DNA of 43,009 nt. Origin: Fimbriimonadales bacterium. GTDB lineage: Bacteria > Armatimonadota > Fimbriimonadia > Fimbriimonadales > Fimbriimonadaceae. A model generated the notes under the pieces. It saw nothing but the letters and a program-made list of their open reading frames with translations. It was not told the DNA's origin and made no database searches. Position 1 is the first letter of the stretch, and each line of letters starts with the position of its first letter. Shown one piece after another: positions 31,659 to 34,185 of this stretch. A program made the position numbers and the translations under genes. The stretch covers positions 1-43,009 of the forward strand of contig JAOACB010000019.1 in the NCBI GenBank assembly GCA_026418055.1, written 5' to 3'.

Positions 31659-31693
31659 AGGAACAACCCCACTGGAGCGCAGCGGGGGTTCCT
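31659..31693 (-). terminator. Hairpin at the end of the capsid operon
   Basis: AGGAAC (31659-31664) pairs with GTTCCT (31688-31693), CCCC (31667-31670) with GGGG (31684-31687) and CTG (31672-31674) with CAG (31680-31682), with a 2-nt bulge and one mismatch. It lies 3 nt beyond the stop of the 89-aa gene and separates the operon from the ADP-ribosylglycohydrolase gene. Confidence 0.5.
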
Positions 31694-31696
31694 CTC

Positions 31697-31966
31697 TCAG
31701 CCGCCCGAACCTCCCTGCGCATCCGCTCGGCGCGACCGCCGCCGAAGCGCCTCGATCACCTCGGTGTTGCGGCGCACCGCCTCGGCCAGCTCGCGCAACG
31801 CGGGCGCGAAGGCCGCCTGCGCCGCCTCTTGGCGGCGGACCATCTCCTCCAGAAAGCCCACGAAGCGGTCCGCGACCTGGCGCTGCTGCACCAGGCTGAA
31901 CCGCGCCAGGGCGAACGACGAAGCGACGAACGTGGCCAGCACGGCCAGCAGCTGCGTCCAGTCCAA
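31697..31966 (-). CDS. Small membrane-anchored coiled-coil protein of the capsid operon
   Basis: An 89-aa protein: one N-terminal helix (about 4-24, TQLLAVLATFVASSFALARF), then a charged helix with heptad-like hydrophobics (about 30-78, QVADRFVGFLEEMVRR, LRELAEAVRRNTEVIEALRR), then a Gly/Ser tail. TTG start with GGAGGAGG 8 nt upstream. It is the last gene of the capsid operon, 49 nt after the major capsid gene. Holin-like or structural proteins of this size are common near phage heads, but its topology (membrane helix at the N-terminus, coil after) could also tether a shell to the membrane. No family was recognised. Confidence 0.65.
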   Translation of the reverse strand: MDWTQLLAVLATFVASSFALARFSLVQQRQVADRFVGFLEEMVRRQEAAQAAFAPALRELAEAVRRNTEVIEALRRRSRRADAQGGSGG

Positions 31967-31984
31967 GCGGCGTCCTCCTCCGAA

Positions 31985-32010
31985 CCTTTAGGGGGCCCTT
32001 TAGGGGCCCC
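31985..32010. repeat. 12-bp tandem repeat with hairpin between capsid genes
   Basis: CCTTTAGGGGGC (31985-31996) is followed at once by CCTTTAGGGGCC (31997-32008), 11 of 12 identical. The same stretch folds as a 7-bp GC stem (31992-31998 with 32004-32010). It lies between the major capsid stop and the ribosome-binding site of the 89-aa gene, where it could limit read-through or mRNA decay. Confidence 0.5.
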
Positions 32011-32015
32011 AGCGG

Positions 32016-32951
32016 TCACAGCATCGCCCCGTAGGCGGTCTGCCACAGGCCGTAGCCCACGGCGTAGCGGGCGCGCACGCCGTAGTGGTAGCGGTCGTAC
32101 ATCCAGGCCGCGTCGCTGCCCGCGCCGGCCTCCAAGGCGGAGAACTCGACCGGCACGTCGCTGCGCTGCTGCAGGATCACCGCGCGGATCGGCCTCTTCG
32201 TGTCGAGCAGGAACCAGTAGTCGTCGGTCGGCCCCGTGAGGAACGGCGTGACGACCACGCGCAGCCTGCCCTGGAAGGCGTTCAGGTAGTCGGTCGGCGG
32301 AACGGTGTCCGAGGCGTTCGGCTTGTACACCACCACGGGGCTCTCCACCAGCTCCAGAGCGCTCCAATACAGCTTGGGACCCACGACCAGCGTATCGGGA
32401 ACGATGCCCAGCGGCGTCCCCGAGTCGTCGGGCACGCCCATCATGGCGGTGAAGGCGGCCGCGAGGCTGCCCGCGCCGAGCGGCTGGTTGCCCGTGTTCG
32501 AATAGGTTCCACCTCCCACGGGGTGCGACGCGCTGAACAGCGGCTGCCCGTCGTAGGTCTGGCCGGAGAACCCCGACGCGAGCGCCTCCACCACGATCTG
32601 GTGACGGTGCGTGGCGACGCGGTGCGCCAGATCGCGCACCCTCAGGCGGATCAGGTCCAGCTGGTCGTCCTCGATGGCCTTGCGGTCCACCGCGATGCTG
32701 GCCTCGTACACCTTGTCGGCGATGGTCACGGCGTAGGACGCCAGGCCCGCGGGACGGCGCTCGTCCGCGAACTCCCGCAGCGTCGGCACCGCCCCCAGCC
32801 AAGCGTAGCGCTGCACGGGCAGCGTGGTGTGGACCACCGTCGCCAGGCGGTCCGCCACGCTCTGGTCCAGCTCGGTGCGGTAGGCCTGCTCGAACTCCGC
32901 CTTCAGGCCGGGCAGCAGCAGATCGGGGATGTCGGATCGTGTCAGAGCCAT
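32016..32951 (-). CDS. Mu gpT-like major capsid protein
   Basis: A 311-aa shell protein of the Mu gpT (major head subunit) family, an HK97-fold type in known phages. The family order is seen: N-terminal LLLPGLKAEFEQAYRTELDQ, then VQRYAWLGAVPTLREFADERR (47-66), YAVTIADKVYEASIAVDRKAIEDDQLDL (73-100), the helix DLAHRVATHRHQIVVEAL, SGQTYDGQPLFSASHPVGGG (129-148) and the C-terminal YDRYHYGVRARYAVGYGLWQTAYGA, which matches the gpT end G-x-G-x-W-Q-x-A. Length is close to Mu gpT. GAGGAGGAAACG precedes the ATG. The frame is intact. No portal, terminase or tail gene is nearby, so free phage assembly from this locus looks impossible. Confidence 0.88.
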   Translation of the reverse strand: MALTRSDIPDLLLPGLKAEFEQAYRTELDQSVADRLATVVHTTLPVQRYAWLGAVPTLREFADERRPAGLASYAVTIADKVYEASIAVDRKAIEDDQLDLIRLRVRDLAHRVATHRHQIVVEALASGFSGQTYDGQPLFSASHPVGGGTYSNTGNQPLGAGSLAAAFTAMMGVPDDSGTPLGIVPDTLVVGPKLYWSALELVESPVVVYKPNASDTVPPTDYLNAFQGRLRVVVTPFLTGPTDDYWFLLDTKRPIRAVILQQRSDVPVEFSALEAGAGSDAAWMYDRYHYGVRARYAVGYGLWQTAYGAML

Positions 32952-32961
32952 CGTTTCCTCC

Positions 32962-33399
32962 TCACACCGTGTGGTTGTCGATGCGCACGCGCACGCCGAG
33001 CTCCCCCGTCGACGTGGTCTCCAGGGCGACGATCGTGCCGACCTTGTAGGCGTTGCCCAGTCCGGTGGCCGAGTTCTGCACCTCCCAGTCGGAGGCCGCG
33101 TAGGCCTCCTTGCCGATGTCGGCCTGGCTGGGGGTGAAGCCGACCGCCTTGAACACGAAGCTGCCGGCCTTGGTGATCGCCACCGAGCGCTGGCCGGGGT
33201 TGCCGTCGGTGTTGTCGACGGTCTCGTTCGCGACGCCGACGAACTTCAGGCCTGCGGCCTGGGGGGCGATGGGCACCAGGTAGCCGGCCGTCGAGACCGC
33301 CATCAGGGCGCCCTTGAACGCCTTCACGGTCGCGAGCTTCATCGAGACGACGATGCCGGGACGCTCGAACGCCTCATAGGGTTTGGTGAGGGATGCCAT
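32962..33399 (-). CDS. Capsid cement (DUF2190-like) protein
   Basis: A 145-aa beta-rich protein resembling phage capsid cement/decoration proteins (DUF2190 type), which stabilise shells from outside. Typical features are LKFVGVANETVDNTDGNPGQ, then the repeated short strands RSVAITKAGSFVFKAVG, QADIGKEAYAASDWEVQN and VGTIVALETTSTGELGVRVR. The order protease, cement, capsid protein is as in phage head modules. It lies 10 nt before the capsid start and 21 nt after the protease stop. Its ribosome-binding site is weak, which suggests coupling to the upstream gene. Family label is a pattern match by eye. Confidence 0.78.
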   Translation of the reverse strand: MASLTKPYEAFERPGIVVSMKLATVKAFKGALMAVSTAGYLVPIAPQAAGLKFVGVANETVDNTDGNPGQRSVAITKAGSFVFKAVGFTPSQADIGKEAYAASDWEVQNSATGLGNAYKVGTIVALETTSTGELGVRVRIDNHTV

Positions 33400-33420
33400 G
33401 GTTTTGCTCTGAGGGATGGA

Positions 33421-34149
33421 TCAGCGGGACCGCCGTCGTGCGATCTCCGCGAGGTCGACGTCCGGGAAGTAACGGCGGTAGAACGCCTCCTCCTCGGGCA
33501 GGAGCAGATGCGACTCGTCGGAGGCGCGAGCAGGCGCCACCTCCGCCAGCAACGCCGACGGTGGCTGCCTCTCGAGCAACGCCCGGACGAGGGCCGCGAC
33601 CGGCACCGCGGAACCGTCGAAGGCCACCTTCTGGCTGCACGCCAGCAGCGCCTCCGCGAACGGCCTCTGCGCGGGAGCGAGCCTGCCGCCGCGCTGCAGC
33701 TCGTCCAGAAGCGCGCGCGACTCGGGGCTCAGCGGCTGGCCCGGCCACGCCGCGTGGAACACCGGCCCCTGCCCGAACAGGCGGGCGTCGGGCACCCGGG
33801 GGTGACGCACCAGGGACACCTCGAGGATGCGCGACAGGTCGGGGCTGAGCGCCACCGACAGCGACGACGCCCCGGAGCGCCGAGCCAGCCGGTCGGCCTC
33901 CTCGGTCAGCCGCACCGTGCCGAACAGCTCCCCGCCCACCGCCTCGACCGAGGCGAGCTCGCCGAGGTGCAGCGGGGACTCCGCGTGCTCGATCAGCACC
34001 GGCACGGGGCCCTCGAACCGCTCCGCCAGGCTCGCGAGGTCCTGGGCCGTCACGCTGAGGCCCTTGTCCGGGTACTCGCCGGCCTCGAACAGCTTGGCGC
34101 GGCGCTCGACCCAGGGGGCCGCGGGTGGGGTCGTTGCGGGATGCTCCAT
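33421..34149 (-). CDS. Phage prohead protease/scaffold-like protein
   Basis: A 242-aa protein in the position and form of Mu gpI-type protease-scaffold fusions. The N-terminal half (15-125) resembles such proteases: AKLFEAGEYPDKGLSVTAQDL, PVLIEHAESPLHLGELASVEAV with H55, GASSLSVALSPDLSRILEVSL with candidate Ser 96 or 98 and E110, and VRHPRVPDARLF. The C-terminal half is helical and charged, as in scaffolds (PESRALLDELQRGGRLAPAQ, LLLPEEEAFYRRYFPD). First gene of the capsid operon; the ATG lies 6 nt after a -10-like TATCCC. Activity is inferred from order and motif placement, not from a confirmed match. Confidence 0.75.
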   Translation of the reverse strand: MEHPATTPPAAPWVERRAKLFEAGEYPDKGLSVTAQDLASLAERFEGPVPVLIEHAESPLHLGELASVEAVGGELFGTVRLTEEADRLARRSGASSLSVALSPDLSRILEVSLVRHPRVPDARLFGQGPVFHAAWPGQPLSPESRALLDELQRGGRLAPAQRPFAEALLACSQKVAFDGSAVPVAALVRALLERQPPSALLAEVAPARASDESHLLLPEEEAFYRRYFPDVDLAEIARRRSR

Positions 34150-34155
34150 CTCACA

Positions 34156-34185
34156 GGGATAGGAGACGAACGTCTACTCTGTCAA
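34156..34185 (-). promoter_or_regulatory. Capsid operon promoter with operator-like dyad
   Basis: On the minus strand a perfect -35 TTGACA (34185 to 34180) is followed after 18 nt by TATCCC (34161 to 34156), 6 nt before the protease ATG. The spacer contains the dyad AGACG-TT-CGTCT (34164-34175), placed where a repressor would block polymerase. No other perfect TTGACA -35 paired with a -10 was noticed in the window. Confidence 0.6.

Follow-up and report, generated by a model that had tools for sequence, protein, structure and literature searches.

Four genes in the window, by which we mean the whole 43,009-nucleotide stretch of DNA analysed here, probably make up the head locus in a particle system of Armatimonadota, one that is domesticated, is passed on vertically, packages DNA and resembles gene transfer agents (GTAs). 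We favour a DNA-packaging head over an empty shell because a terminase, a portal and, in most cases, an adaptor and a stopper are conserved together with the capsid genes. Formally recognised GTAs come from few lineages (PMC9662315), and we found no report of the present system in the literature. If this reading is true, it adds a new lineage of GTA-like systems whose layout is unusual, in that the head, neck, portal and terminase genes are scattered over separate host loci and a tail is apparently absent; two questions then come within reach of experiment, namely whether DNA can be moved by a domesticated head that lacks its own tail, and whether host-owned particles can arise from tail-less head elements.

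The four genes all lie on the minus strand, with open frames separated by gaps of about 22, 11 and 50 nt from the first gene to the last, in agreement with an earlier note that had described them, from the letters alone, as intact and closely spaced. The functions proposed there were likewise borne out. P1 (33421-34149, 242 aa) has the layout of a prohead protease with a scaffold-like C-terminus, as in Mu gpI or S78-like proteins; its C-terminal half weakly matches the head maturation protease family phrog_976 (E 9e-4), and His55, Ser98 and Glu110 are invariant in 57 of 57 homologues, with no match to the Mu protease family PF10123. P2 (32962-33399, 145 aa) resembles cement or decoration proteins of virions and matches the virion structural family phrog_1731 (E 2.5e-18), and its position between P1 and gpT is kept in nearly all loci. 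P3 (32016-32951, 311 aa) is the major capsid protein of Mu gpT type (PF10124, E 1.5e-54; phrog_371, 1.8e-58). Two C-terminal segments of this protein have traded places compared with Mu gpT, residues 162-238 matching Mu 237-305 and residues 246-306 matching Mu 169-226, and the same arrangement is seen in FP_Mushu. P4 (31697-31966, 89 aa), whose sequence is kept in the congener, shows by its hydropathy profile one N-terminal membrane segment and a predicted coiled coil. The claims about signals fared less well: the hairpin downstream of P4 is present (31666-31687, minus strand), but it is a weak terminator-like structure that folds little better than shuffled sequences (z -1.2; two terminator-like sites versus 0.8 expected), and a consensus scan gave no promoter before the operon. 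Most of the cellular neighbours that had been named were seen, including an ADP-ribosylglycohydrolase directly after P4, a GFO/IDH/MocA oxidoreductase, tRNA-Gly, a FadL-type porin, HAD and GH65; the LolA-like gene, however, had no Pfam match.

The locus had been thought to stand alone without portal or terminase, which holds inside the window but not for the genome (an assembly of 2.89 Mb in 135 contigs), in which a Terminase_6N protein (TerL; G000:C124:69937-70521) adjoins a Mu-type portal (C124:68294-69232) on another contig. Its named relatives assign this genome to Fimbriimonadia within Armatimonadota. Among 61 related genomes, strong homologues of both gpT and the portal occur in 41 and of neither in 15, with the portal only in five and gpT only in none (Fisher p 2e-10), and the portal is thus present in every gpT-carrying relative of this set. 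The system is dispensable, since 15 of the 61 relatives lack both genes and five have a portal without gpT; those five (G001, G017, G032, G056 and G060) are incomplete assemblies or cases of partial loss. In most cases TerL and portal sit together as a two-gene locus amid host genes, at distances from gpT of about 2 kb (G016), about 18 kb (G011), 756 kb (G009) and 1.03 Mb (G019). Within Fimbriimonadia the parts are dispersed over two to four loci, and the closed genome G041 has four separate ones (gpT at 1412266, portal at 1233459, TerL at 2272893 and P5, discussed below, at 2556446); distances between the loci span 0.18-1 Mb in G009, G019 and G041, all three closed genomes, and deep lineages have the parts contiguous. 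In 21 TerL sequences the Walker A (GRRWGK) and Walker B (DE) motifs and the nuclease aspartates, as we assigned them, are invariant.

These observations bear on the suggestion of the earlier note that the operon makes an empty shell, that is, an encapsulin-like or other protein compartment built on the gpT capsid. Seen from the window, which shows a capsid operon only, and from the loss of the adaptor in the window's genus, such a compartment has some appeal; but in that same genus TerL, with all its catalytic residues, and the portal are kept under purifying selection, and no relative with gpT is without the portal. Given this co-conservation, together with that of the adaptor and stopper in most cases, we rejected the encapsulin reading and regard a compartment as very unlikely.

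Deeper lineages carry the complete set as one cluster, in the order TerL, portal, protease, cement, capsid, a variable gene (X), adaptor, stopper and membrane protein, often with an endolysin. The closed genome G217 has TerL-portal-P1-P2-gpT-X-P5-P6-P4 (L370), and families f32-f35 have similar clusters, several of which also carry a holin-like gene and an amidase or M15 gene: L374 reads portal-P1-P2-gpT-X-P5-P6-P4-holin-like-M15 peptidase, and L372 and L387 contain TerL, portal, P1, P2, gpT, X, P5, P6, a holin-like gene and an Amidase_3-type gene. In family f2, the adaptor-like P5 and the stopper-like P6 occupy a locus of their own. P5 has no match to any PHROG and is placed by its predicted structure: a model built from a 15-sequence alignment (pLDDT 84) ranks with the adaptors HK97 gp6 and SPP1 gp15, and phage necks fill the first nine places (Z 6.0-7.9), with single Foldseek E-values that are weak. 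The P6 model (29 sequences, pLDDT 96) ranks with phage stoppers, namely those of T1 (Z 10.5), lambda (9.7-9.8) and a GTA virion (8.2). P5 is missing from the window's genus, and P6 was not seen in the window, the TerL-portal stretch of C124 or the congener's contig, the three places examined; with no P5 and no stopper beside the operon, the particle of this genus may be impaired or altered. P4 is probably a lysis accessory because it adjoins holin-like and endolysin genes in deep lineages, as in the order stopper-P4-holin-like-M15 peptidase of L374-L376. The product of X varies, with a short N-terminal motif that recurs in some lineages, and possibly supplies head fibres or depolymerases. The post-capsid gene is a GDSL esterase in L384 (7140-8012) and a DUF2961 protein in L385 (11010-12050), and large proteins with no assigned family occupy this place in L382 (6415-9432) and L084 (12045-14674).

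The gpT profile has matches in 124 of 291 Armatimonadota genomes and 68 of 156 genera, and in these 124 genomes the homologues are almost all single-copy and free of stops. A search of 84,980 species genomes gave nothing above 37% identity outside Armatimonadota, with two exceptions: a short match in Tabrizicola at 44% (E 4e-11) and, at 48%, a single record that bears the title Abditibacteriota. A further record, titled as a Methanoregulaceae archaeon (L065), carries a Fimbriimonadia cassette, and its title is for that reason probably wrong for the assembly. Named phages reach 35% for gpT, and IMG/VR contigs at most 41% by the gpT search's own figures, with the portal up to 41% and TerL up to 37%. 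With single homologues as blastp queries, a few IMG/VR contigs with host gene order reached about 50%, and these are probably host DNA; the IMG/VR contigs L252, L253, L255 and L263 resemble host Armatimonadota clusters that were binned as viral.

Selection and descent both point to genes kept by the host. Against the congener G002, dN/dS is 0.19 for P1, 0.37 for P2, 0.14 for gpT, 0.19 for the portal and 0.23 for TerL, compared with 0.14-0.32 for neighbouring host genes. The distances of gpT, portal and TerL are mutually correlated (r 0.82-0.92), and all three also correlate with those of rpoB (Mantel r 0.73-0.79, versus permutation maxima of 0.26-0.35). Trees built from gpT, and from the three proteins combined, reproduce the family groups and have the backbone and several inner clades in common with rpoB. 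The agreement of portal and TerL with rpoB is weak inside family f1 (values as high arose in 40 and 82 of 999 permutations), for which reason some local horizontal exchange in this family is possible. Neighbour clustering gave no recurrent integrase, regulator or replication gene beside the head, TerL-portal or neck loci. The system is apparently older than several families of Armatimonadota, and the proposal of domestication made in the earlier note is upheld by its conservation across the phylum, the intact single copies, the purifying selection, the rpoB-like trees and the lack of recurrent mobile-element neighbours.

The same data speak to whether the loci are slowly decaying remnants of an old prophage. 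Short incomplete prophages, one of them with portal, head and capsid, have been listed in Fimbriimonadales metagenome-assembled genomes (PMC8597652), and the loss of P5 in the window's genus and the scattering of the gene sets would fit such decay; yet the frames are intact in nearly all 124 genomes, where frequent frameshifts and losses had been named beforehand as signs against domestication, dN/dS is like that of neighbouring host genes, the catalytic residues of TerL and P1 are invariant, and the congruence with rpoB extends over several families. We consider a remnant highly improbable, as the first reading had also ranked it lower, and rejected it on intactness, selection and congruence.

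No tail genes were recognisable after the neck genes in the clusters read, and none were linked to the head loci. The tape measure family PF10145 was found in two of 61 genomes (one over the cut-off), the sheath family PF04984 in three of 31 and a second tape measure family, PF20155, in six of 31 (three over the cut-off), all of them sporadic and none conserved among carrying genomes; clustering of recurrent neighbours gave no tail family either, and a divergent tail could escape these three families and this clustering. In Mu and FP_Mushu, by comparison, sheath, tube and tape measure closely follow the neck genes. A portal, terminase or tail set beside the head genes of related genomes had been put forward as evidence against a stand-alone locus; portal and terminase do adjoin the head genes in several relatives, whereas a tail set was not found. 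A divergent relative in G038 (contig C45; L044 and L194) has a different-looking terminase, a phrog_195 adaptor and an amidase, is also split by host genes and, in our reading of its sequences, has putative tail genes downstream; its hub-like protein has no homologue except for one weak match in G028. An 8.8-kb contig of the window's genome, C106 (L045), is a fragment of a separate prophage that encodes a protease-capsid fusion (phrog_4523) and a tape measure protein; its capsid differs, and it does not belong to the system.

A gene content of head, packaging and neck with no tail agrees with the helper-dependent head that the earlier note had also raised, in which the cell, or an immobilised satellite, would make DNA-filled necked heads that take the tails of resident phages. 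The fold match of P6 to stoppers, which normally dock a tail, and the presence of tailed prophages in some carriers (the tape measure on C106; G041 near 677 kb) fit such helper-dependent heads, but tail-bearing prophages are sporadic among carrying genomes, and the loci have no recurrent integrase, regulator or replication neighbours, so we hold this explanation to be rather unlikely while giving it more weight than the compartment or the remnant.

Our data suggest a model of a GTA-like particle whereby P1 would first scaffold and then mature the gpT shell, P2 would cement it, TerL would use the portal to package host DNA in pieces, adaptor and stopper would seal the neck, and P4 with an endolysin would release the particles. 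Where the gene set is dispersed, it would presumably not package itself as one piece, and the whole would work like a gene transfer agent. Delivery with no encoded tail might use the tails of resident phages, a tail locus that escaped recognition, or head-bound fibres or hydrolases encoded by the variable gene. A more specific and clearly more tentative version, to which we give less than even chances, is that hosts across the phylum own a DNA-packaging head with no tail of its own, derived from a tail-less head element and not from a tailed phage, which delivers host DNA by borrowed tails or by head-bound fibres and hydrolases.

A conceivable source of such a head is offered by IMG/VR contig 3300036983_000046 (IMGVR_UViG_3300036983_000046; L432/L257), which has 24,215 bp and identical 127-bp ends, as in a circular genome. 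It encodes helicases, a primase-like protein, TerL, portal, P5, an amidase, P1, P2 and gpT, and a further protein with a match to a tail-fibre family, and no tail tube, sheath or tape measure was recognised in it. Two further contigs of 23.6 and 24.9 kb are alike, and the pairs L430/L261 and L431/L256 belong with them. These contigs point to the existence of tail-less head elements as mobile genomes, and we read them as a family of tail-less or tail-borrowing elements, one of which may have been ancestral to the Armatimonadota system. The group (L256, L257, L261 and L430-L432) shares with this system a portal and gpT about 40% identical, the P1-P2-gpT block, P5, an amidase and a membrane coiled-coil gene, with no tail recognised; unlike it, the group is of mobile type and encodes helicases and a primase-like protein, and its terminase family and gene order are different.

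Among known systems, Mu-like phages (Mu and FP_Mushu) have in common with the Armatimonadota genes the gpT family, the Mu-type portal, a protease/scaffold before the capsid and an adaptor after it, but in the phages sheath, tube and tape measure follow, which the Armatimonadota clusters lack, and P1 has no PF10123 match and P5 no PHROG match. Encapsulins are HK97-fold shells with neither portal nor terminase, whereas both are co-conserved with gpT here; the frequent frameshifts, losses and relaxed selection of decaying prophages are not seen, yet the window's genus has lost its adaptor. Capsid-forming PICIs contain head, packaging and connector genes without a tail. The Armatimonadota system is similar to them in having head and packaging genes without genes of the tail families searched, and differs in being dispersed, vertically inherited and no mobile island, with no integrase, regulator or replication gene among the recurrent neighbour families. 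Capsid-forming PICIs are reported to take tails from resident phages (Alqurainy et al. 2023, cited in PMC11389934).

GTAs are viriforms, for which a definition with six features has been given (PMC9662315), and three of these can be recognised in the Armatimonadota system: proteins derived from caudoviricetes (gpT, Mu portal, TerL, and adaptor and stopper folds), full endogenisation, often at multiple loci (separate in closed genomes G009, G019 and G041), and mostly vertical inheritance with co-diversification (Mantel tests and trees against rpoB), weaker within f1. The definition also asks for a gene set that does not fit whole into one particle, on which the distant loci of those closed genomes and the contiguous clusters of deep lineages point different ways, for a cargo of mostly random host DNA and for delivery of that DNA to other cells. 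It differs from RcGTA, BaGTA and BhGTA in its phylum and, it appears, in the lineage of its capsid, portal and terminase; no tail module was found in it, its head, neck, portal and terminase are split into up to four loci, and its packaging and delivery are predictions read from genes. Like those GTAs, it has head and packaging genes derived from caudoviricetes, endogenised and often at multiple loci, that co-diversify with the host and are accompanied by lysis-type genes. Together, the system, a candidate GTA known from its genes rather than an established member, looks like an unrecognised and unusual GTA relative that is kept by much of Armatimonadota.
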